Source: an uncultured Prochlorococcus sp. (GTDB lineage Bacteria > Cyanobacteriota > Cyanobacteriia > PCC-6307 > Cyanobiaceae). Taken from it: a stretch of 38,644 bases of DNA. Below, in pieces: positions 2,293-24,091 of the stretch. The notes under the pieces are model-generated. The model was not told the origin of the DNA and searched no databases. It saw nothing but the letters and a program-made list of their open reading frames with translations. How positions within the stretch are numbered: position 1 is the stretch's first letter; every line of letters begins with the position of its first letter. The stretch covers positions 1 through 38,644 of the forward strand of contig CABYJE010000008.1 in the NCBI GenBank assembly GCA_902519235.1. Direction: 5' to 3'. The translations under genes and the position numbers were made by a program.

Positions 2293-4575
2293 CTAGATTT
2301 TTCCAATATTTAGGAAAAGAGTTTCACCAGTTGATTTCTTTCCAGTCCCGTCGTTGTCAGTTGAAATCCATGCTTGCCCTTCGCTTGTTATTGCTAAGCC
2401 TTCAACCTTTTCAAGGATAAAACCACCCGTAGATTTCATTACTGGTTTTAGATCAGTAACTAACTCTTTTTCAACTAAAGGATAAAGTCTGGGAGGCATA
2501 TTAGTCTGAAGATCTTCGAAAATAACATCATCTAAATCTATTTTATATATAGCTTTCAATTTCGCTTTCTTTCCATAGAAACTATCTCTTTCGATTACGT
2601 AAAGTGCCCCGTCATGGTAAGTCAATTCTGAAATACCAACCCCACCTTTTTTGATCCTATCTAATTGATAATTTACGGCCCCCCACTGTTTAGTTTTTAA
2701 ATTATAGGAAAGAATCTTAGTAGTATTGAAAGTATCATCACCCCAAGGCTTCTGTTGAGCAATATAAAGAATATCCCCATTTCTTGTTATGCCTTCAAAA
2801 CCAGGGTTTCTAGCATAATTAAGATATGAAAGTGGTGGAGTTATCTTCTCTAAAATTTCACCATCTGAGCTTACATGGTAGATTGCAGGAGGATGTTCAT
2901 CTAGCTTTTTCTTGATTCCTTCAGTAGAAATGTAGAATCCACCATTACCATCAGTAGTAATACCCTCTTGATCCATAAATAATGCAGTCTTACCATCTAG
3001 CTTTATATCTATAGCTCTTTCTAATAGTGCTGGGGAAGATGAAGGATCAATAACGTAAATTCTTGGCTGAGTTTTAAAAGTCCCATCATTTACAGCATAA
3101 ATTTTACCGTCATCACCAGCCACCATTCCACTTATCGCACCCCAAGATACAAATTCAAGGCCATTTTCATTTGTTAAATGTGGGTATGAAGCAGGAGCAT
3201 CTTGTAGTTGATAAATAGTCACATGAGAAGATAAACCAGGTTCTTTTTTGTTGTAGTCTTTTTCATTTGCTGAGGCAATTAATCCCCTCTCTGGAATTGC
3301 GACAAATCCCTCTGGTCCAATGCCTGATGGAAGTAATTGAGTAAGCAAAGGTTGATTTAGTTCTGTAATATCGTAAACAGCTACTATCCCAGCTCGTTCA
3401 GCTCCAACAAATAAATAGGGCGTTCCATTAATTTTTGAATATGTAACTGACTCAGGTTCTACTCCCTTTTTACCTGCTCTTCCATCTTGGAAATGACCTA
3501 TTTGTGCAATTGCTCTTTCTAGTCTATTTGCATCTTCATAAACTACTGTTCCATCTTTTTTAAAAATAGTCCAGGATCTTGAACCACCTCTTTTTGCCTG
3601 ATTTGGATCAATATGCTTGTAATCGCCTTCATTTGCTGTTGCAAAATGATCATTATCAATCCAAGTAAGACCATCGGGTTCTCTTCTTACATTTTTTAGT
3701 TTGCTTTTAAATTTATGTGCTCCATCTTTCTTTGTATCCATTCCTGCCATTTGTTTTACAATCCCTGCAGAGAAATGTGATATAACATTTCCATCTTTAT
3801 CAATTACTGCAAGATGGTTGTTTTCTTGAAGAGAGACAACTGTTTCACCAAGATCATTAATAGCAACGAATTCTGGTTCGGGATCAAAAGGAGCTATTTC
3901 GGATAAGCCTGTTAAATCTACTTTTTTAATTGAGTTACATTGTATTTTTCCTCTTTTGTTTAACTTCACAAGAGAAACATAACCTGCAGGATTAATTTGA
4001 ATGCCATTGTCATCAATTTGAGGGATAAATCCATTTTTATATTCTTCATCCCTCTCATTTTCTATAGCGACAGCTAGAAATGTTCCGTCTGGTGAAACAA
4101 AAACGCTATCAGGCTGCCCACCTAAATCACATTCTTTTACTGCTTTTCTTGTTTCTAAATTGTATTGAACTAATGCTCCTGAAGGATTTGTATAACTTTC
4201 AGATGTATTTGAACCTATATAAGCATTGTTTCCAAGTGCTGCAATTCCAGTTGGTTCTGCTTCCAGTTCAACAACTCCCAATGCTTTAGGTTTTGCAGGG
4301 TCTGAGATATCAACTAAACCTACTACTCCTAGATCGCTATCTGTATACATCAATGTCTTTCCATCTTCTGATGCTGTAACTACCTCTGAAGAAGTTTTGG
4401 TTGTAGATTTTGATCCCTCTGGTAAATTATCACTTACATTGAAAGAAGAAATTCTGTTGAAGTTTTTTTCATTGGCCCAATATTTTGTATTCCAATTTGC
4501 AAATCCGCTACTTGTAGAGGAGGCGACGATTGCAAGTAATGCAGAAAAACTTGCAGCTGCTAATGTTTTTTTCAT
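2293..4575 (-). CDS. Secreted alkaline phosphatase/phytase-like protein (PhoA/PhoX locus)
   Basis: 760-aa exported protein probably releasing phosphate from organic esters in the periplasm. A signal peptide is clear (MKKTLAAASFSALLAIVASS). Residues about 50-450 look like a beta-propeller with motifs such as VGLVDISDPAKPKALG and AVYDITELNQP. Residues about 480-755 resemble the 'esterase-like activity of phytase' domain (SGMVAGDDGKIYAVND, EGITTDGNGGFYISTEG, GFEGITRNGDILYIAQQ, EGLAITSEGQAWISTDND). The classical PhoA catalytic motif and a twin-arginine leader are both absent. From memory, the Prochlorococcus homologue at this locus has been called phoA or phoX; the fold seen here fits neither classical family, so no symbol is given. 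The Pho-box promoter upstream strongly supports a phosphate-stress role. Confidence 0.8.
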   Translation of the reverse strand: MKKTLAAASFSALLAIVASSTSSGFANWNTKYWANEKNFNRISSFNVSDNLPEGSKSTTKTSSEVVTASEDGKTLMYTDSDLGVVGLVDISDPAKPKALGVVELEAEPTGIAALGNNAYIGSNTSESYTNPSGALVQYNLETRKAVKECDLGGQPDSVFVSPDGTFLAVAIENERDEEYKNGFIPQIDDNGIQINPAGYVSLVKLNKRGKIQCNSIKKVDLTGLSEIAPFDPEPEFVAINDLGETVVSLQENNHLAVIDKDGNVISHFSAGIVKQMAGMDTKKDGAHKFKSKLKNVRREPDGLTWIDNDHFATANEGDYKHIDPNQAKRGGSRSWTIFKKDGTVVYEDANRLERAIAQIGHFQDGRAGKKGVEPESVTYSKINGTPYLFVGAERAGIVAVYDITELNQPLLTQLLPSGIGPEGFVAIPERGLIASANEKDYNKKEPGLSSHVTIYQLQDAPASYPHLTNENGLEFVSWGAISGMVAGDDGKIYAVNDGTFKTQPRIYVIDPSSSPALLERAIDIKLDGKTALFMDQEGITTDGNGGFYISTEGIKKKLDEHPPAIYHVSSDGEILEKITPPLSYLNYARNPGFEGITRNGDILYIAQQKPWGDDTFNTTKILSYNLKTKQWGAVNYQLDRIKKGGVGISELTYHDGALYVIERDSFYGKKAKLKAIYKIDLDDVIFEDLQTNMPPRLYPLVEKELVTDLKPVMKSTGGFILEKVEGLAITSEGQAWISTDNDGTGKKSTGETLFLNIGKI

Positions 4576-4729: not shown

Positions 4730-6049
4730 TTAGAAAGAGAATGATACGAATGCACCAGCTCCAGTTGAATCATCTTTTCCAGCTACTGTTTCAGCAACAT
4801 AAACAAATGGAGTGATTGTAATTCCATCATTGATTGGATATTCATAAGAAATATCGTATGCATAAATTTCTTCAGCATCATCAACTATTGCTCCATTAGT
4901 ACCATAGTTAAGACTGATTGTTCCTTCACCTAGTTCAGAACTGATACCAAGAGCCCATTGTGATTTATCATCACCAACATCTGGATCAGTATTTTCAAAT
5001 CCTCCACTTATCATTGGCATACCTTCAGGATTGTAATAAGCAACTACACCAGTATGTGTAGCAGTGTCTTTGTCTGAGTAGGCCACTGTGAATCCAAATA
5101 ATTCTTGCTCATAACCTAGGGCTACACCATAGTAATCAGCACCTTCTTTTGTAAACATACCTGCTGATGTTTCGCCATCATTTGCAGATGCACCGACACC
5201 AACTTCCCATCCATTTCCAAATCCTCTACCAAAGCTTAATGATTGATCACCGCTTAGGTCAACAGAGTTTGCAGCACCACAATCTCCTAGGTTATCAACC
5301 ATGTTATTCATTGAACATGCATTAGGCCAAACCTTGGAGGCATCCATAGAATCCCCAACAGCCACTGTCCATTCACCTAGTGGGAAAGTGTAGTTAACAT
5401 CTGAAATCTTAAGGACGTCACCAGCATCTGAACCCCAATCTAATGCTGTTTTATCTGCACCAACACCTGATCCAGTAGCATTTCCTGTTTCAATTTCAAT
5501 GTTTAATTTATCATCTCCAGTGAAACTTGTATTCAGGTCAACTTCGAAGAAATATTCATTCATAAGTTTGTCACCTGCAATTGAAGAGTCAGTATCAGTT
5601 GCACCCAATAAAAATCCAACTGAACCACTCATGGTTGTGGTTTCAGAAAAACCTCCAGCTTCAATTCCATTAACGCGAGCTTCAAGACCATCCACTCTTC
5701 CTTTCATAATTGCCAACTCAGAACCAAGCTCATCACTTAGTCTATCTATTGCAGCTCCATTCATTAAGCCTTCACCACCTGCAATTAGATTGCTTAATTC
5801 AGCAGCAGCTTCTAAACGAGAGACTGAGTTTCCATTGAATTTTGAACTATTTGTAAGATCCTTTAATGAATCGTAAGCCCAATCTCCAGGAAATAAAGTA
5901 TCTGATTTGAAATCTCCAAAAGATACTAATTTATTAGAGTTTGTAAATTTACTAAGATCTGTTGAATTGATCTCAGATGCATTTACTGCGAAACCTGATG
6001 CCATAGAAATGATGGCAGGAGCAGCAATTAATTTTTGAAAAAGTTTCAT
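4730..6049 (-). CDS. phoE: Phosphate-stress outer-membrane porin (PhoE/Som type)
   Basis: 439-aa cyanobacterial porin, probably a trimeric channel for anions in the outer membrane. It has a signal peptide (MKLFQKLIAAPAIISMASGFAVNA). A short SLH-like N-terminal region includes WAYDSLKDL and SVSRLEAAAELSNLIAGGEGL, followed by a coiled-coil-like linker (SELAIMKGRVDGLEARVNGIEAG). A beta-barrel from about residue 135 ends with the aromatic C-terminal strand GAGAFVSFSF typical of BAM substrates. Two cysteines in NACSMNNMVDNLGDCG recur as a pair in the porins at 18.8-21.3 kb. A Pho-box promoter lies upstream and divergent pstS beyond it, so phosphate is the likely cargo; phoE is the name used for such porins in marine cyanobacteria. 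Selectivity cannot be read from sequence. Confidence 0.85.
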   Translation of the reverse strand: MKLFQKLIAAPAIISMASGFAVNASEINSTDLSKFTNSNKLVSFGDFKSDTLFPGDWAYDSLKDLTNSSKFNGNSVSRLEAAAELSNLIAGGEGLMNGAAIDRLSDELGSELAIMKGRVDGLEARVNGIEAGGFSETTTMSGSVGFLLGATDTDSSIAGDKLMNEYFFEVDLNTSFTGDDKLNIEIETGNATGSGVGADKTALDWGSDAGDVLKISDVNYTFPLGEWTVAVGDSMDASKVWPNACSMNNMVDNLGDCGAANSVDLSGDQSLSFGRGFGNGWEVGVGASANDGETSAGMFTKEGADYYGVALGYEQELFGFTVAYSDKDTATHTGVVAYYNPEGMPMISGGFENTDPDVGDDKSQWALGISSELGEGTISLNYGTNGAIVDDAEEIYAYDISYEYPINDGITITPFVYVAETVAGKDDSTGAGAFVSFSF

Positions 6050-6391: not shown

Positions 6392-7387
6392 ATGACATCC
6401 ATGAACATAGCTAAGAAAGCTTTGGTTTTCACTTCTGCAGTAGCCATTGCTGCTGGTACAAGTGTTCCTGGCACAAGTGTTTCTGCTAGAACAAGATTAA
6501 GTGGTGCTGGAGCATCATTTCCTGCCAAAATTTACACTCGTTGGTTCAAAGATTTAGCCTCTTCAGGAGGGCCAAGAGTAAACTATCAAGCTGTTGGTTC
6601 AGGCTCTGGAAGAAAAGCATTTATTGATCAAACTGTTAACTTCGGTGCATCAGATGATCCAATGAAAGATGCAGATATAGCAAAGGTTACCAGAGGTTTA
6701 GTTCAGATACCTATGGTAGGTGGCACAATTGCTTTTGGTTATAACTATGATTGCGATTTGAAACTTACTCAAGAGCAAGCAGTAAGAGTTGCTATGGGTA
6801 TGGTTAAAAACTGGAAAGAATTAGGCTGTAAATCAGGTAAGTTAACTTGGGCACATCGTTCTGACGGATCAGGCACAACCAAAGCTTTTACTAACTCTAT
6901 GGAAGCTTTTTCAAAAACTTGGACACTAGGAACAGGTAAATCAGTTAAGTGGCCAGCAGGCGTTGGAGCAAAAGGTAATTCAGGTGTAGCAGGTGTTATA
7001 CAAAATACTCCTGGTGCAATTGGTTATGTTAACCAGTCTTACATAAAAGGTAATGTGAAAGCTGCTGCACTTCAGAATCTTTCAGGTGAGTTTCTAAAAC
7101 CATCTGTAGAAGCAGGAGCTAAGGCTCTTAATGGTATTACTCTAGATGAAAATCTTGCTGGTAAAAATCCTAACCCAACTGCAAAAGGAGCATACCCTAT
7201 AGCTTCATTAACATGGATACTTGCTTATGAAGAGGGTAATGGTAGAAACACTAAAGCTATCAAACAAGCCTTTAACACATTGTTAAGTGATGAGTATCAA
7301 GATAAAGCTCCATCACTTGGATTTGTCCCCTTAAAAGGAGATATTCTTGAGAAGTCAAGAGCTGCTGTAAAAAGAATCGGTAAATAA
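6392..7387 (+). CDS. pstS: Periplasmic phosphate-binding protein PstS
   Basis: High-affinity phosphate-binding protein that delivers phosphate to the PstCAB ABC transporter. It has a signal peptide (about residues 1-32: NIAKKALVFTSAVAIAAGTS). The mature start RLSGAGASFPAKIYTRWF is the classical PstS opening. Ligand-loop motifs FGASDDPM and RSDGSGTTKAFT supply the Ser/Asp/Arg/Thr contacts known in the family. 331 aa is normal. ATG at 6392 is used; ATG at 6401 is an equally usable start. It is monocistronic here, with its own Pho-box promoter and a strong terminator at 7405-7434. pstC, pstA and pstB are not in the window. Confidence 0.96.
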   Translation: MTSMNIAKKALVFTSAVAIAAGTSVPGTSVSARTRLSGAGASFPAKIYTRWFKDLASSGGPRVNYQAVGSGSGRKAFIDQTVNFGASDDPMKDADIAKVTRGLVQIPMVGGTIAFGYNYDCDLKLTQEQAVRVAMGMVKNWKELGCKSGKLTWAHRSDGSGTTKAFTNSMEAFSKTWTLGTGKSVKWPAGVGAKGNSGVAGVIQNTPGAIGYVNQSYIKGNVKAAALQNLSGEFLKPSVEAGAKALNGITLDENLAGKNPNPTAKGAYPIASLTWILAYEEGNGRNTKAIKQAFNTLLSDEYQDKAPSLGFVPLKGDILEKSRAAVKRIGK

Positions 7388-15225: not shown

Positions 15226-16917
15226 ATGAAAGGTTTTGGAGAACACAAGAAATCTTTGCATAAATACAGCAAGAAACCAAATATAGAAAACTTACAAAAA
15301 CTTTTAATTAATCAGGCAATTCAATTTCATTTAAAAGGCAATATTCCAGAAGCAAAAAAATATTATAAAAAAATAATCGATCAAGGATGTAATGACTATA
15401 AAGTTTTTGCTAATTATGGCGTTATATTGAAAAATCTTGGAAAGCTCAAAGAAGCAGAAAAATCTACTTGCAAAGCAATAGAACTTAATCCCGATTACGC
15501 AATGGCATATTGTAATCTCGGAGCTATTTTAAAAGATCTTGGAAAGTTAAATGAAGCAGAAAAATCTACTTGCAAAGCATTAGAACTTAATCCAGATTAC
15601 GCTATGGCATATGGTAATCTCGGAGCTATTTTAAAAGATCTTGGAAAGCTCAAAGAAGCAGAAAAATCGACGCGTAAAGCAATTAAACTCAGTCCTGATA
15701 TAGCAGAGGTTCAATCTAACTTAGGCACTATTTTAAGAAATCTTGGGAAGTTAAAAGAAGCAGAAAAATCTACTCGCAAGGCAATAGAACTTAAACCTGA
15801 CTATGCCATGGCATATTGTAATCTTGGAGCGATTTTAAAAGCTCTTGGAAAGTTAAAAGAAGCAGAAAAATCCACTCTCAAAGCAATAGAACTTAATCCT
15901 CATTTAGCAAGCGCCTATTTTTCTCTATCAACTCTTAAATACGGCAAAGAAATTAAAATATGGAAGAAACATCTTTTTTCTGAAAATATATTAAAGAATA
16001 AATCTAATAAAGATAAAATTAACATTTATTTTGCAAGGGGAAATATTCTTCATAATGAAAAGAAATACCAAGAAAGTTCAAAATATTATACTTTAGCGAA
16101 TAATCTAAAACTTGATATTAAACCATCTCAATTTGAAGATAGAATTAAAAAGTCTGAAGCATTATTTATTGAAACTGGCAAATTAGAAATATATAAAAAA
16201 GAATGCATTAATTTTCCTAAGAGTATATTTATTGTAGGAATGCCTAGGAGTGGATCTACATTAATTGAGTCAATACTTAGTATGAATGATGATGTATATG
16301 ATTTGGGTGAAATTAACATACTCGAGGAATCATTCTTGGAGCAAAAACAAATTGATCAAGAATCACATCTAATTGATATTTATTTCAAAAAAATAAGCGG
16401 ATATACAAATAAATTTAAAATCACAACAAATAAATGGCTCTATAACTATCAATACGCGGGTATTATCGCTAGCCAAATTCCTGAAGCCAAAATAATTCAC
16501 TGTTATAGAAATCCTTTGGACAATATCCTGTCAATTTATCGATCAAATTTTGAAACTGGAAACGAATATTCTTCTTCATTAGTTGATTGCACAAGAATTT
16601 ATTTAGATCAAGAAGAAATAATGAGTAGATATAAGGATGAATTTCGACCAAAAATATATGACATGAATTATGACTCATTAGTAGGAGAATCCAAAAAAGA
16701 AATAAAATCATTGATTGCCTGGTTAGGTTGGCATTGGGACGATTCATACTTATCTCCCCATCTAAATACTCGCTCAGTATCTACTGCAAGCAGTGTTCAA
16801 GTTCGCTCCCCAATTAATTCAAAGTCAACGGGTGGATGGAAGAACTACAAAGATATGCTTAAACCTTCTATAGAAATCCTTAAAGAAACTAATAAATATG
16901 GAGATTCGCTTTCATAA
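15226..16917 (+). CDS. TPR-repeat sulfotransferase family protein (copy 1)
   Basis: 563-aa two-part protein. Residues about 25-235 are tetratricopeptide repeats, including five near-identical 34-residue units (consensus NLGAILKxLGKLKEAEKSTxKAIELNPDY). Residues about 325-560 are a sulfotransferase domain with the PAPS 5'-phosphosulfate loop IFIVGMPRSGSTLIESIL and a 3'-phosphate-binding segment HCYRNPLDNILSIYRSNF. The family transfers sulfate from PAPS to protein, lipid or glycan acceptors. No signal peptide is seen, so it is probably cytoplasmic and may modify cell-surface precursors. The start MKGFG is shared with the next gene, a close paralogue, which supports this start codon. Confidence 0.85.
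   Translation: MKGFGEHKKSLHKYSKKPNIENLQKLLINQAIQFHLKGNIPEAKKYYKKIIDQGCNDYKVFANYGVILKNLGKLKEAEKSTCKAIELNPDYAMAYCNLGAILKDLGKLNEAEKSTCKALELNPDYAMAYGNLGAILKDLGKLKEAEKSTRKAIKLSPDIAEVQSNLGTILRNLGKLKEAEKSTRKAIELKPDYAMAYCNLGAILKALGKLKEAEKSTLKAIELNPHLASAYFSLSTLKYGKEIKIWKKHLFSENILKNKSNKDKINIYFARGNILHNEKKYQESSKYYTLANNLKLDIKPSQFEDRIKKSEALFIETGKLEIYKKECINFPKSIFIVGMPRSGSTLIESILSMNDDVYDLGEINILEESFLEQKQIDQESHLIDIYFKKISGYTNKFKITTNKWLYNYQYAGIIASQIPEAKIIHCYRNPLDNILSIYRSNFETGNEYSSSLVDCTRIYLDQEEIMSRYKDEFRPKIYDMNYDSLVGESKKEIKSLIAWLGWHWDDSYLSPHLNTRSVSTASSVQVRSPINSKSTGGWKNYKDMLKPSIEILKETNKYGDSLS
15412..15921 (+). repeat. Five 102-bp tandem TPR-coding repeats
   Basis: Five direct units of exactly 102 bp (starting at 15412, 15514, 15616, 15718, 15820), each encoding one 34-aa TPR unit. 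DNA identity between several units is very high, with long shared runs around GGAAAG...GAAGCAGAAAAATC, much higher than TPR protein constraint needs. This indicates recent slippage or unequal crossover. Confidence 0.88.
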
Positions 16918-17089
16918 ATGTTCAATAAAACGATATCTATATGACTAAGTATTTTGCGAGATCTAAGAATTCTTTATTAATCTAGAAGGTATGTCAAAAA
17001 AATAATTTTTGTATTATTTTAATTTGATTACGACATCATTATCATTTTAAATTAAACCATATAAGATATCCTCAGAGATTTAAAGTAAT

Positions 17090-18583
17090 ATGAAGGGGTT
17101 TGGAGATAAAAATCAATCAAAAAAGAAAAATATTAGATATAAAAATGAAAAATTCAATACTGATAAGTTAATTAAAAAAGCATTTCAACTTCAAGCTGAA
17201 GGTAAAAAATTAGAAGCAGCAAAGTATTATTTGTATCTTATTAAAAATGGATTGCAAAATTATATTGTTTTTTCTAACTATGGAACATTCCTAAAAGAAA
17301 TTGGAAAACACAAAGAAGCAGAAATAGAACTAAAAAAAGCAATTACGTTAAATCCCAAATATGCCAATGCATACTATAATCTTGGAGGTTTATTTCTTGA
17401 AAAGGGTAATTTATCTAAAGCAGAAATTTACCTTAGGAAAGCAATTGAACTTAAGTCTGATTTTGCTAGTGCTTACTACAATCTTGGATTTATATTAAAA
17501 AATCTGGGTAAATTACAGGAAGCAAAATTATATATTCAAAAAGCACTTGAAATAGATCCTCAATTGACTGATGCATACTTGTCGCTATCGAATATGCAGC
17601 AAACAGAAAAAGACCAAAATTGGATAAGCCAACTTTTTTCTGAAAGTTTCTTAAATAACAAAAAAAATATAGAGTTAGTAAATATCTTTTTTGGAAGGGC
17701 AAACATTCTTCACAAAAGAAAGAAATATAGAGAAAGTGCAGAGAACCTTTTAAGAGCAAATAATTTAAAACTCAGTATGTTTAAGTCAGAAGCAGACTTG
17801 TTAATTAAAAAAACTAATAAATTAAAAATTTCCTCAAACAATTTTCAGAGAAATTTTCAAGATTACTCTGATGATCCAATAAGTATTTTTATAGTTGGAA
17901 TGCCCAGATGCGGTTCAACTTTGGTGGAGTCCATTATAAGCCTAAATTCCCGAGTAAATGATCTTGGAGAAGTTAATATATTTGAAGAATCTTATAGAGA
18001 ATATAAACAATTGAAATCTAATAGAGAAGCAACACTTGCAGAAATATATAAACGATATTCACAAAATAATATTGCTGAATTAACAATAACCACTAATAAA
18101 TGGTTATTTAATTATCAATATGCAGGAATAATTGCAAGGACTATTCCAAATGCAAAAATAATTCATTGTTATAGAAATCCTCTAGATAATATTCTTTCAA
18201 TTTATCGGGCCCATTTCAGCACAGGTAATATTTTTTCTTCTTCCTTAGTTGATTGTGCACAAGTTTATATTGATCAAGAAGAGATTATGGATTTATATAA
18301 AAAAGAATTTAGATCATATATTTACGATTTAAATTACGAAGAATTAGTTACTAACCCTTTAAAAGAAATAAAGTCTTTAATAAATTGGTTGCAATGGGAA
18401 TGGAATGACAACTACCTATATCCAAACCTAAATCAACGTTCAGTATTTACCAGAAGTAATGTTGAAATTAGATCACCTATTAATTCAAAATCTGTAGGAG
18501 GATGGAAACATTATGAGGATATGCTTCAACCAGCAATAGAAATTTTAACGAAGAAGGATAGATATAAAAATCTTATTTCTTAA
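17090..18583 (+). CDS. TPR-repeat sulfotransferase family protein (copy 2)
   Basis: 497-aa paralogue of the gene 172 nt upstream. About four divergent TPR units lie at residues 25-165, followed by a sulfotransferase domain with P-loop IFIVGMPRCGSTLVESII (Ser replaced by Cys relative to copy 1) and the 3'-phosphate segment HCYRNPLDNILSIYRAHF. Both share the C-terminal block RSPINSKS-GGWK-Y-DML-P-IEIL. The shorter length is due to fewer TPR units. The start MKGFG is followed by a basic stretch, as in copy 1. Tandem placement indicates duplication then divergence; different acceptors are plausible but not shown. Confidence 0.85.
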   Translation: MKGFGDKNQSKKKNIRYKNEKFNTDKLIKKAFQLQAEGKKLEAAKYYLYLIKNGLQNYIVFSNYGTFLKEIGKHKEAEIELKKAITLNPKYANAYYNLGGLFLEKGNLSKAEIYLRKAIELKSDFASAYYNLGFILKNLGKLQEAKLYIQKALEIDPQLTDAYLSLSNMQQTEKDQNWISQLFSESFLNNKKNIELVNIFFGRANILHKRKKYRESAENLLRANNLKLSMFKSEADLLIKKTNKLKISSNNFQRNFQDYSDDPISIFIVGMPRCGSTLVESIISLNSRVNDLGEVNIFEESYREYKQLKSNREATLAEIYKRYSQNNIAELTITTNKWLFNYQYAGIIARTIPNAKIIHCYRNPLDNILSIYRAHFSTGNIFSSSLVDCAQVYIDQEEIMDLYKKEFRSYIYDLNYEELVTNPLKEIKSLINWLQWEWNDNYLYPNLNQRSVFTRSNVEIRSPINSKSVGGWKHYEDMLQPAIEILTKKDRYKNLIS

Positions 18584-18815: not shown

Positions 18816-18824
18816 GTGTGAGGA
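18816..18824 (+). promoter_or_regulatory. Ribosome-binding site with Yfr1-complementary motif (porin A)
   Basis: GTGTGAGGA, with the GAGGA Shine-Dalgarno 5 nt before the ATG at 18830. It is the reverse complement of TCCTCACAC, part of the conserved single-stranded core of the cyanobacterial sRNA Yfr1, which is reported to repress porin mRNAs in Prochlorococcus. Pairing would mask the ribosome-binding site. Confidence 0.7.
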
Positions 18825-18829
18825 AATTT

Positions 18830-19957
18830 ATGAAGCTTTTTAAAAGCTTGCTTGTAGCACCTGCGACTATAGGATTATTAGCTCCTATGTCCGCTACAGC
18901 AAACGAAGTTACAATTAGTGATTTCGCCCCTGCAGAAGAACTTGCTATTACTAACAGCCGTGTAGATGGTTTAGAAGCAAGAATGAACAACATTGAAGCT
19001 GGTAGCTTCTCAGAAACAACAACTGCATCATTCGGTGTTGATTTCTACTTAGGTGCTCAAGATGATGAGGAGAGCGCTTCTGGAGCTGAAACAGATGCTT
19101 CTGATGATGCTCTTACTTTTGGTTACAGTCTAGGAATAGGTCTTAACACAAGTTTTACTGGCGAAGATTCTCTTGATATCACACTTGATGCTGGTAACTC
19201 TACTGAAGGTGTTGCTGAATTCGATGGAAACACAAACGGTGACGCACTTACAGTTGATGGAGTTTCTTATACATTCCCAGTTGGTGAGGCAACATTCATT
19301 GTTGGTGACTCTACAGACGGTAGCGCACTTTTCACAACAGCTTGTGTTTACGGCGGACCAGGTAACTTATTAGATGATTGTGCCAACGTAAATGCTGGTA
19401 TTACTGGTGGTGCAGCAACTCTTGGTGCTAGTTACGACTTCGGTAATGGATTTACTGCTGCTACTGGTTTCCAGACAGGTAGTGAAGTTACAGGTATGTT
19501 CACTGATGAAACACTTGATGCTTATGCCTTCAACGCAGCTTACATAGCTGACACTTACGGTGTTTCTTTAACTTACGGTATCGTTGAGACATCTTCTATA
19601 AATGAAGATAAATTCACTGCATTAAATGCTTACTACACTCCTGAAGGTTATTTCCCTTCTATAAGTGTTGGTTATGAAGCCGGTGACATCGGTGGAGCTG
19701 ACGCAAGTGTTGATGAAAAAACAAGTTTCATGGTTGGTTTATCATGGGATGAAGTAGGACCAGGAACTGCTGGTGTTGCTGTAGGTCACAGTAATACTAT
19801 CGAAGGTACAGATGAGGCGTATCAGTACGAAGCATACTACTCATATGATATTAACGATGGCATGACAATTACTCCATTGATCTTTACTAAGGACAATGTG
19901 ACATCCGGTTTAGATGATACAACTGGTGTAATGGTTAAGACTTCATTCAGCTTCTAA
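18830..19957 (+). CDS. Outer-membrane porin A (Som type)
   Basis: 375-aa porin. The start chosen is ATG 18830 (MKLFKSLLVAPATIGLLAPM), matching the paralogue and sitting after GAGGA; the GTG at 18818 lies inside the ribosome-binding site. After the signal peptide the N-terminal domain is very short, keeping only the linker NSRVDGLEARMNNIEAG found in the phosphate porin and losing its SLH-like part. The barrel begins at FSETTTASFG and ends in VMVKTSFSF. Two cysteines (TACVYGGPGNLLDDCAN) match the pair in the phosphate porin. The barrel is rich in acidic residues. From FSETTT to the stop it is identical to porin B. Confidence 0.88.
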   Translation: MKLFKSLLVAPATIGLLAPMSATANEVTISDFAPAEELAITNSRVDGLEARMNNIEAGSFSETTTASFGVDFYLGAQDDEESASGAETDASDDALTFGYSLGIGLNTSFTGEDSLDITLDAGNSTEGVAEFDGNTNGDALTVDGVSYTFPVGEATFIVGDSTDGSALFTTACVYGGPGNLLDDCANVNAGITGGAATLGASYDFGNGFTAATGFQTGSEVTGMFTDETLDAYAFNAAYIADTYGVSLTYGIVETSSINEDKFTALNAYYTPEGYFPSISVGYEAGDIGGADASVDEKTSFMVGLSWDEVGPGTAGVAVGHSNTIEGTDEAYQYEAYYSYDINDGMTITPLIFTKDNVTSGLDDTTGVMVKTSFSF

Positions 19958-20010
19958 ATTTATTGATTTAATTTAGAAAATCTCCAACACACAAAAAGGC
20001 CTGCTAAAAA
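19005..20010 (+). repeat. 1,006-bp identical direct repeat, copy 1
   Basis: Line-by-line comparison with 20338-21343 (offset 1,333) shows no difference across the porin barrel, stop codon, 3' UTR and the left arm of the terminator. Identity breaks at the hairpin loop (A5 versus A6). Confidence 0.93.
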
Positions 20011-20023
20011 GCAGGCCTTTTTT
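19993..20023 (+). terminator. Terminator of porin A
   Basis: Stem AAAAAGGCCTGCT / AGCAGGCCTTTTT with an A-rich loop, directly downstream of the porin. Strong G+C stem core and U tail. Confidence 0.92.
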
Positions 20024-20105
20024 GTTAATAAGGACAAATTTATTTTTGTCTATAGCTTCTTGTCAATATATTATTTATGAATTATTTTAAGAGTATTAAA
20101 TTTCT

Positions 20106-20114
20106 GTGTGAGGA
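20106..20114 (+). promoter_or_regulatory. Ribosome-binding site with Yfr1-complementary motif (porin B)
   Basis: GTGTGAGGA recurs here, with GAGGA 6 nt before the ATG at 20121. The bases just after it differ from porin A, so this 9-mer, the ATG and the signal-peptide codons are the conserved part of the leader. Confidence 0.7.
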
Positions 20115-20120
20115 ATTATT

Positions 20121-21290
20121 ATGAAGCTTTTTAAAAGCTTACTTGTAGCACCTGCGACATTAGGATTATTAGTTCCTATGTCCTCAAATGCTACTGAAGT
20201 TAACCTGAATGAAATTGCAAATTACTCTGATGTTGAGGGTATAGAATTTGTAAATTCTTTTGAAACTGTTGATTCTGATGAAGAATCTTTGCTTGCAGGT
20301 GGAGAGGGATTAGTCGAAGACAGTAGTTATGATGGCGGCTTCTCAGAAACAACAACTGCATCATTCGGTGTTGATTTCTACTTAGGTGCTCAAGATGATG
20401 AGGAGAGCGCTTCTGGAGCTGAAACAGATGCTTCTGATGATGCTCTTACTTTTGGTTACAGTCTAGGAATAGGTCTTAACACAAGTTTTACTGGCGAAGA
20501 TTCTCTTGATATCACACTTGATGCTGGTAACTCTACTGAAGGTGTTGCTGAATTCGATGGAAACACAAACGGTGACGCACTTACAGTTGATGGAGTTTCT
20601 TATACATTCCCAGTTGGTGAGGCAACATTCATTGTTGGTGACTCTACAGACGGTAGCGCACTTTTCACAACAGCTTGTGTTTACGGCGGACCAGGTAACT
20701 TATTAGATGATTGTGCCAACGTAAATGCTGGTATTACTGGTGGTGCAGCAACTCTTGGTGCTAGTTACGACTTCGGTAATGGATTTACTGCTGCTACTGG
20801 TTTCCAGACAGGTAGTGAAGTTACAGGTATGTTCACTGATGAAACACTTGATGCTTATGCCTTCAACGCAGCTTACATAGCTGACACTTACGGTGTTTCT
20901 TTAACTTACGGTATCGTTGAGACATCTTCTATAAATGAAGATAAATTCACTGCATTAAATGCTTACTACACTCCTGAAGGTTATTTCCCTTCTATAAGTG
21001 TTGGTTATGAAGCCGGTGACATCGGTGGAGCTGACGCAAGTGTTGATGAAAAAACAAGTTTCATGGTTGGTTTATCATGGGATGAAGTAGGACCAGGAAC
21101 TGCTGGTGTTGCTGTAGGTCACAGTAATACTATCGAAGGTACAGATGAGGCGTATCAGTACGAAGCATACTACTCATATGATATTAACGATGGCATGACA
21201 ATTACTCCATTGATCTTTACTAAGGACAATGTGACATCCGGTTTAGATGATACAACTGGTGTAATGGTTAAGACTTCATTCAGCTTCTAA
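20121..21290 (+). CDS. Outer-membrane porin B (Som type)
   Basis: 389-aa paralogue of the porin 164 nt upstream. The signal peptide MKLFKSLLVAPATLGLLVPM is nearly shared. The mature N-terminus then differs completely: an acidic stretch (SFETVDSDEESLLAGGEGLVEDSSYDGG) that retains the AGGEGL segment of the phosphate porin but lacks the GLEAR coiled-coil linker kept by porin A. From FSETTTASFG to the C-terminal TSFSF the protein is identical to porin A. The two genes therefore encode the same channel with different periplasmic N-termini. It has its own ribosome-binding site and terminator. Confidence 0.88.
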   Translation: MKLFKSLLVAPATLGLLVPMSSNATEVNLNEIANYSDVEGIEFVNSFETVDSDEESLLAGGEGLVEDSSYDGGFSETTTASFGVDFYLGAQDDEESASGAETDASDDALTFGYSLGIGLNTSFTGEDSLDITLDAGNSTEGVAEFDGNTNGDALTVDGVSYTFPVGEATFIVGDSTDGSALFTTACVYGGPGNLLDDCANVNAGITGGAATLGASYDFGNGFTAATGFQTGSEVTGMFTDETLDAYAFNAAYIADTYGVSLTYGIVETSSINEDKFTALNAYYTPEGYFPSISVGYEAGDIGGADASVDEKTSFMVGLSWDEVGPGTAGVAVGHSNTIEGTDEAYQYEAYYSYDINDGMTITPLIFTKDNVTSGLDDTTGVMVKTSFSF

Positions 21291-21343
21291 ATTTATTGAT
21301 TTAATTTAGAAAATCTCCAACACACAAAAAGGCCTGCTAAAAA
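20338..21343 (+). repeat. 1,006-bp identical direct repeat, copy 2
   Basis: Second copy of the repeat at 19005-20010. It covers the barrel-coding part of porin B and its 3' UTR. No synonymous differences are seen. Confidence 0.93.
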
Positions 21344-21356
21344 AGCAGGCCTTTTT
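21326..21356 (+). terminator. Terminator of porin B
   Basis: Same hairpin as after porin A (GGCCTGCT / AGCAGGCC with A/T flanks), with one extra A in the loop. Confidence 0.92.
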
Positions 21357-21537
21357 ATATTTCTATGAATATAAATTCTTATAGATAAATTATCTATATT
21401 TTCAAAATTATTTCTAGATTTTTATATAAAAAATTTAAAATTTCAACTTATAAAATATTAAAAACAATTAAAGAATTCCTATTAATGCTTTCATAATATT
21501 ATTAATATTCTCATTAAATTTATCAAATATCTTCAAA

Positions 21538-22687: not shown

Positions 22688-24091
22688 TTGATAGATAAAG
22701 AGGTAATAGTAATAGGGGCGGGTCTAGCTGGATCAGAGGCAGCTTGGCAAATAGCAAACGCAGGAATAGCCGTTAAATTAGTTGAAATGAGACCGCTATC
22801 TTCAACTCCAGCCCACCATTCAAGTGAGTTTGGTGAACTAGTATGTAGCAATAGTTTTGGAGCCTTGAGTAAGGACAGAGCTGCAGGACTTTTGCAAGAA
22901 GAATTAAGGACGTTCAATTCACTAATAATTAAAACAGCAGATATGTACTCTGTCCCAGCTGGTGGAGCACTAGCGGTGGATAGATCAAAATTTAGTAAAT
23001 CTTTGACAGAGATTTTATCTTCACATTCACTTATTGAAATCAAAAGGATTGAACAATTAGATATCCCAGAAAAAGAGACCATAACTATAATTGCTACTGG
23101 TCCTTTGACATCTAATGCATTAGCTACAAAAATTAAAAACTTTACAGGTTTTGATTATTGCCATTTTTTTGATGCAGCAAGCCCTATCATCTATGGCGAC
23201 ACTGTTGATCACGAAATTGTCTTTAAAGCAAGTAGATATGACAAAGGGGATCCAGCATATTTAAATTGCCCAATGAACGAAAATGAATACGTAAATTTTA
23301 GGAATCAATTAATTAAAGGTCAGCAAGCCACTTTGAAGGATTTTGAAAAAGATTCAGCAAATTTCTTTGAAGCCTGTTTACCAATCGAAGAGATAGCGAG
23401 AAGAGGAATTGAAACAATGCGATATGGTCCTTTGAAATCTATTGGTTTATGGAATCCAAAATGGGGAGATTTATTCGATAGAGAAAATAGATTTAAAAAG
23501 AGGCCCCATGCAATTGTTCAGTTAAGGAAAGAAGATCTAGAAGGTAATTTACTAAATATTGTTGGATTTCAGACTAACCTCAAATGGTCAGAACAAAAAA
23601 GAATATTTAGAATGATTCCTGGCTTAGAAAAAGTTGAGTTTGTTCGTTTTGGTGTAATGCATCGAAATACATTTTTAGAATCTCCTAAACTCCTTTTGCC
23701 AACACTTCAATTTTTAAAAAGGGAATCACTTCTGGCTGCAGGCCAAATTACAGGGACAGAGGGCTATGCAGCTGCAGCTGCAGGTGGCTTATTAGCTGGA
23801 ATTAATGCTTCTTTACTGGCGATGAATAAAAGTCCAGTTACTTTCCCTAAGGAATCAATGACAGGTTCTCTAATGAACTTTATTAGTAATAAAAATGTAA
23901 TAATGTCTAATCAGAAAAAAAATAAGTTTCAACCAATGCCTCCATCTTTTGGGCTCCTGCCAGAATTAAAAAACAAAATAAAAGACAAAAAAATAAGATA
24001 CAGAGCTTACCAAGAAAGGTCTTTAAAGGCCATGCAAAGTTTTAAAAAAAAATTAGATTCGTGTTTCGAAAAAGAACAATTATTTGTCTAG
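22688..24091 (+). CDS. trmFO: Methylenetetrahydrofolate-tRNA (uracil-5-)-methyltransferase TrmFO
   Basis: 467-aa folate/FAD-dependent enzyme that forms m5U54 in the tRNA T loop. The FAD Rossmann motif [16 protein letters not shown] is at residues about 7-22. TrmFO signatures include [61 protein letters not shown] and [16 protein letters not shown]. Full length. The start is TTG at 22688, 6 nt after psbY. The next gene, crtH, follows after 32 nt. Confidence 0.95.

Follow-up and report, generated by a model that had tools for sequence, protein, structure and literature searches.

Linked porin genes kept alike by gene conversion have been described in Brucella, where omp2a and omp2b are 85-100% identical and sometimes fully homogenised, with conversion affecting the surface loops (PMC7050475). 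In Prochlorococcus MED4, the sRNA Yfr1 targets the porins PMM1119 and PMM1121, which are regarded as products of gene duplication (PMC6778093); their transcripts are abundant and stable, both genes being strongly transcribed (PMC3898218). The passages of PMC6778093 consulted make no mention of barrel homogenisation in the two genes, and a literature search on concerted evolution or gene conversion of Prochlorococcus porins, which left subscription papers mostly outside its reach, found nothing on the pair. A further point of comparison is OmpM and SlpA, in which one SLH-headed protein is reported to act both as an outer-membrane channel or connector and as a tether to the cell wall (PMC10628300, PMC9388160).

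We analyzed a window of 38,644 nucleotides, one whole contig of a draft Prochlorococcus genome (56 contigs, 1.17 Mb, approximately 71% complete), that carries two porin genes in tandem on the + strand. Porin A (18830..19957, 375 aa) and porin B (20121..21290, 389 aa) each consist of a signal peptide, a head and a barrel, and they are of the same locus type and gene family as PMM1119 and PMM1121. MED4-like genomes have a TPR-sulfotransferase gene between the porins, whereas the window pair is separated by only 163 bp; in the window two tandem TPR-sulfotransferase genes (15226-18583, +), 73% alike in stretches of their DNA, lie immediately before porin A instead. Porin A starts at the ATG at 18830, and the upstream GTG at 18818 given by the open reading frame list is unnecessary. 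On the right, a trmFO/GidA-like gene (22688..24091, +; Pfam GIDA) served as a syntenic anchor in 20 of 20 genomes examined. An Rfam scan of the window returned two tRNAs and nothing else.

Self-comparison of the sequence revealed an exact direct repeat of 1,006 bp (copy 1, 19005..20010, +; copy 2, 20338..21343, +) made up of the barrel, the stop codon, the 3' UTR and the first arm and loop of the terminator. All silent sites are included, and the barrel codons of A and B are identical at 316 of 316 positions. The 5' edge of the block lies 2 nt upstream of the TTC of FSETTT (19007 in A, 20340 in B). The 3' edge is in the terminator loop, where porin B is longer by a single A (terminator of A, 19996..20024, +, AAAGGCCTGCT AAAAAG CAGGCCTTTTTT; terminator of B, 21328..21358, +), and the right-hand arms match again after this 1-nt slip. 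A 1-kb exact direct repeat cannot have arisen by chance in a 38.6-kb window. The first-pass annotation had claimed identity from FSETTT into the terminator arm, silent sites included, with an abrupt onset at the domain boundary, and both statements were borne out by the exact block. It had also called the mature N-termini unrelated, which applies to the mature heads only (38% nucleotide identity from residue 26 to FSETTT): the signal peptides are 85% identical in DNA, and the ribosome-site region is of the GTGTGAGGAA type in both 5' leaders (18818..18829, +, for porin A; 20107..20120, +, for porin B).

The mature heads are the parts that escape homogenisation. The type 1 head of porin A (18905..19006, +) is short and helix-prone and includes ELAITNSRVDGLEARMNNIEAG, and the type 2 head of porin B (20196..20339, +) includes EVNLNEIANYSDVEGIEFVNSF and, further on, LLAGGEGLVEDSSYDGG; with their signal peptides they measure 59 aa and 73 aa, and both are without an SLH segment. 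Across the genus, type 1 heads end in ELAVTNSRVDGLEARLNNFEAG, and type 2 heads carry NLNDISNYSDVES and then LLAGGEGLVDS. Each head is accompanied by its own leader, with GTGTGAGGA no more than 40 nt from the start in 51 of 56 type 1 genes and 33 of 34 type 2 genes. The GTGTGAGGAA-type leader region is presumably complementary to the Yfr1 sRNA motif. That the heads are periplasmic is inferred from the porin family, in the absence of a usable structure model. It is likewise an inference, without functional data for the heads, that the two would provide a single kind of channel with two modes of tethering or of regulation.

To place the pair in its genus, we used a comparison sample of 100 other Prochlorococcus genomes, one per species, and split the porin genes at FSxTT. 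The core set comprised 29 species with one full type 1 and one full type 2 copy at one syntenic locus. Within these genomes the two barrels had a median nucleotide identity of 1.000, with exact identity in 17 of the 29 and values of at least 0.99 in 27; between genomes the median was 0.605 and the maximum 0.959. The pS of the barrel was approximately 0 within genomes and never below 0.088 between them. Because even the closest genomes are this far apart, nearly every terminal branch requires a conversion of its own. Averaged over the porin pairs, identity rose to approximately 1 at the F codon that opens the barrel and dropped off approximately 70 nt beyond the stop, immediately after the terminator. 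The first-pass annotation had named as a refuting pattern paralogues that diverge more than orthologues do, and what we observed was the reverse; the criterion for concerted evolution, that paralogues be more alike than orthologues with silent sites included, was met.

Porin function is constrained, and one might suppose that strong purifying selection or convergence made the barrels alike without any copying of DNA, although no result of this analysis supports it. We give this virtually no credence, as the identity extends to silent sites and 3' UTRs and the barrel is only 50% identical in amino acids between genomes. Zero synonymous differences over 316 codons, together with the UTR identity, rule out convergence. 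Among type 1 genes of different genomes the amino-acid identity was 0.88 for the head versus 0.50 for the barrel, in which variable blocks are interspersed with conserved short turns, as expected if exposed loops vary.

Homogenisation was weaker or absent in three cases, G061 (0.89), the L034 genome (0.93) and G022 (0.47), and the type 1 gene stood alone at the locus in at least four genomes (G050, G043, G034 and G090). From the less homogenised genomes and the type 1-only loci it follows that barrel identity is not indispensable. In L043 (G067; 1492-2687) and L046 (G026; 1492-2070), we also observed porin copies at the pair locus that bear a frameshift or a premature stop codon. In G026, both copies have a type 1 head, and conversion may sometimes cross the head.

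The first-pass annotation had left two options, ongoing gene conversion or a duplication followed by replacement of one N-terminus, and phylogeny separated them. In the head tree, the types were split by one change (SH-aLRT 99%), whereas the barrel tree required 32 changes of head label and placed the two genes of the same genome as nearest neighbours. The order of the locus in 20 genomes was type 1 porin, with or without TPR-sulfotransferase, type 2 porin, trmFO and amine oxidase, with only the type 1 gene in G043 and G050. The head segments were orthologous at one syntenic locus, which met the criterion for a duplication older than the species. Since the heads split by type and share synteny, the duplication must be old and shared between lineages, and the barrels have been re-matched repeatedly. 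A recent strain-specific duplication followed by replacement of one head would equally give identical barrels with different heads, if the 1,006-bp pattern were all we had. It is most improbable given that the heads form two conserved groups across species at the same syntenic positions, so that almost every lineage would have had to re-acquire the same second head independently at that position. As a general account, a single recent duplication and head swap is ruled out by the head and barrel trees and the synteny. Conversion is favored because each head type is one group across species while the barrels pair by genome, and it is highly probable, in our judgment, that the porin pair undergoes domain-limited concerted evolution by gene conversion. 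In one family sample of 80 genomes, nothing outside the genus was closely homologous to the A/B type.

The porin pair in the window comes without long-read proof, and its draft origin raises the concern that a short-read assembler duplicated one barrel or collapsed two distinct ones, the more so because the repeat exceeds usual short-read inserts and many drafts break within the porin gene. Two single-contig genomes address this directly. The pair barrels are 0.993 identical, with six differences, in G015 (1,657,990 bp) and 0.998 identical, with two differences, in G041 (1,738,790 bp), so the pattern is not only an effect of draft assembly. Moreover, a collapse cannot yield two distinct heads that are conserved across species, or distinct flanks with different terminator loops, and repeats that are truly identical would themselves break assemblies at the barrel. 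In 5 of 6 genomes of 2-4 contigs (G024, G039, G042, G060 and G083) a contig end lies inside the type 1 barrel, as expected of unresolved identical repeats. We consider an artefact very unlikely for these reasons, and as a general account a pure assembly artefact is ruled out by the two single-contig genomes. Most of the comparison genomes are nevertheless drafts, in which near-identical copies can be smoothed during assembly until they match exactly; exact identity was commoner in drafts than in G015 and G041, and the figures of exactly 1.000 may be partly inflated in this way. If the barrel is a swappable allele kept matched in two genes, this is also precisely the locus that would be broken or blurred, systematically, in genomes and metagenomes from short reads.

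Two further results, the replacement of barrels and a third porin as donor, are additions to what the first-pass annotation had proposed. In pairwise identity, the amine oxidase gene correlated with trmFO at 0.89, and the two correlated with the barrel at only 0.38 and 0.34. G007 and G009 have flanks that are 96.2% identical, yet for both gene copies the barrels of the two genomes are only 0.587 identical (pS 0.60). Inside each genome the two barrels are matched, at 0.998 (G007) and 1.000 (G009). Clades defined by the flanks were rejected by the barrel data (p-AU 2e-7 and 2e-62). Barrels have been replaced wholesale between lineages. In G009 the type 1 head resembles that of G007 (0.90), and the type 2 head (0.94) and both barrels (0.83) resemble those of G015, which suggests that a type 2 gene was imported from another lineage and subsequently passed its barrel on to the type 1 head. 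A single-block import holding both barrels is not excluded for this genome.

Such an import can be generalized: both barrels, along with the intervening DNA, might be acquired together and already matched, without any conversion inside the genome. The incongruence of barrels with flanking genes is compatible with this, as is the resemblance of the G009 type 2 head and both barrels, though not the type 1 head, to G015; with only a 2-kb TPR gene between the porins, a single tract from the type 1 barrel to the type 2 terminator would suffice. The difficulty is that this merely passes the question on to the donor lineage: matched barrels still have to originate somewhere. In addition, the barrel differences between G019 and G038 (0.959) are common to both copies in each genome, which needs conversion after the two split, and the third-porin case of G022 lies within one genome. 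We regard block import as unlikely, though not so remote as to be dismissed.

G022 itself is a single contig (L048, L119) in which the type 2 barrel is only 0.466 identical to the neighbouring type 1 barrel. Its match is instead a third porin, located at a distance of 105 kb: over approximately 1,240 nt, a stretch that takes in the terminator and DNA downstream of it, there is 1 mismatch. This third porin carries a different head, type 3, and the junction is again at FSETTT. For an ectopic donor, this is a case of the kind that argues against block import, one barrel being replaced and the sister keeping its old allele. In G073 (L125, 1131-3961), type 3 and type 2 heads stand in tandem at another place with barrels identical over 1,213 nt, and in G028 a type 3 head at the pair locus is joined to a barrel of the A/B class. 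G009 and G022 only hint at the direction of the presumed non-reciprocal transfer.

We next consider the family to which the pair belongs. Cyanobacterial SLH porins (SomA/SomB, NCBIfam NF033921) share barrel homology and an N-terminal layout with A and B, but the type 1 and type 2 heads lack the SLH segment and the genes score under the family cut-off. The NF033921 por_somb scores were 61.9 bits for A, 40.4 for B and 80.5 for the window's SLH-like porin at 4733..6049, with the cut-off of 100 not met, and neither A nor B satisfied the requirement of an N-terminal SLH before the barrel. A Pfam search with porins A and B found no family, OprB (PF04966) included. Their relative at 4733..6049 (-), a full-length porin with an SLH-like head that adjoins pstS, does pass OprB (25.1 bits versus a gathering cut-off of 22.9). 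An AlphaFold model built from five sequences contained a regular run of predicted strands, but with a pLDDT of 31 it was unusable, and no homologue of solved structure was found for the porins by sequence. The assignment of A and B as putative outer-membrane barrels is better supported by their homology to the OprB-scoring protein than by the model.

The SLH-like porin also bears on where the two heads came from. Its head contains LSNLIAGGEGLMNG followed by SELAIMKGRVDGLEARVNGIEAGGFSETTT, and it holds both the GGEGL motif, which belongs to type 2, and the GRVDGLEARVNGIEAGG motif, where RVDGLEAR..EAG is the type 1 motif. Porin A and this porin are 43% identical; its barrel is 51% identical to those of A and B in nucleotides and takes no part in the homogenisation. 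The SLH call rests on sequence pattern and family knowledge, as Pfam gave OprB only. In L034 (AG-418-C09), an SLH-headed gene occupies the type 1 position of the pair locus, 162 bp before the type 2 gene and with trmFO downstream, and the two barrels are 93% identical. The simplest reading, which remains an inference from motifs, is that types 1 and 2 may be two different cut-downs of an SLH head, in which type 1 would keep the helical linker and type 2 the segment around GGEGL. Compared with OmpM and SlpA, A and B would have lost the SLH tether in two different ways with the barrel common to both. The SLH-like porin lies in a phosphate-type cluster with a PstS-like binding protein (6392-7387, +), a phytase-like gene (2293-4575, -) and a histidine kinase (720-1880, +) preceded by a probable response regulator.

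The pair resembles Brucella omp2a/omp2b in being linked porins made alike by gene conversion; unlike that locus, it leaves two conserved heads untouched, and the swapped unit is the whole barrel. The features of the omp2 type, an inverted pair with segmental conversion along the gene and one copy unexpressed, are not met by A and B: they are direct repeats, the conversion is bounded by the head, and both MED4 orthologues are strongly transcribed (PMC3898218). In the literature searched, porin gene conversion is already known from Brucella, and the form with fixed heads and a swappable barrel appears to be undescribed.

Our proposed history would begin with an old duplication of a Prochlorococcus "som"-type porin, after which the conserved heads were kept and the barrel halves evolved in concert. 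We infer that homologous (RecA-type) conversion between the 1-kb direct repeats copies the barrel and the terminator, with tracts that would end where homology runs out: on the 5' side this is at the diverged heads, and on the 3' side shortly beyond the terminator. A new barrel would enter one copy by horizontal recombination, and conversion would spread it to the sister gene. The same direct repeats could also delete a copy, as the loci of G050, G043, G034 and G090 with only the type 1 gene may illustrate. Selection would keep the copies matched and renew the barrel. In our view the likeliest drive, which is inferred and not shown, is pressure from phage or grazers to renew the exposed face, in which both copies would need to change, since one susceptible copy would suffice for attack by phage or grazers. 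The main alternative, also not shown, is subunit matching in mixed trimers or oligomers. No cyanophage carriage of the porin pair was found among viral contigs. Synechococcus phage S-SRM01 has a porin gene of its own (L127, 184931-186391) that is 32% identical to porin A.

A broader interpretation, for which we see the chances as evenly balanced, is that a few conserved heads (SLH and types 1, 2 and 3), stable within lineages and equipped with separate leaders, serve as fixed docks, and the barrel is an exchangeable allele. The exchanged unit would extend from the FSxTT codons to the terminator. Its source would be another strain or another porin, and an imported barrel copied to the sister dock would change both surface channels at once. 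If the barrel is indeed a swappable allele matched in two genes, then the permeability of the outer membrane and the surface face would be set by recombination and not by slow mutation, in an organism that is the commonest marine phototroph. If true, this interpretation would amount to surface renewal by way of housekeeping genes, under pressure from phage or grazers, and the porin pair offers a natural test of why surface proteins evolve in concert, whether for escape from phage and grazers or for the matching of subunits.
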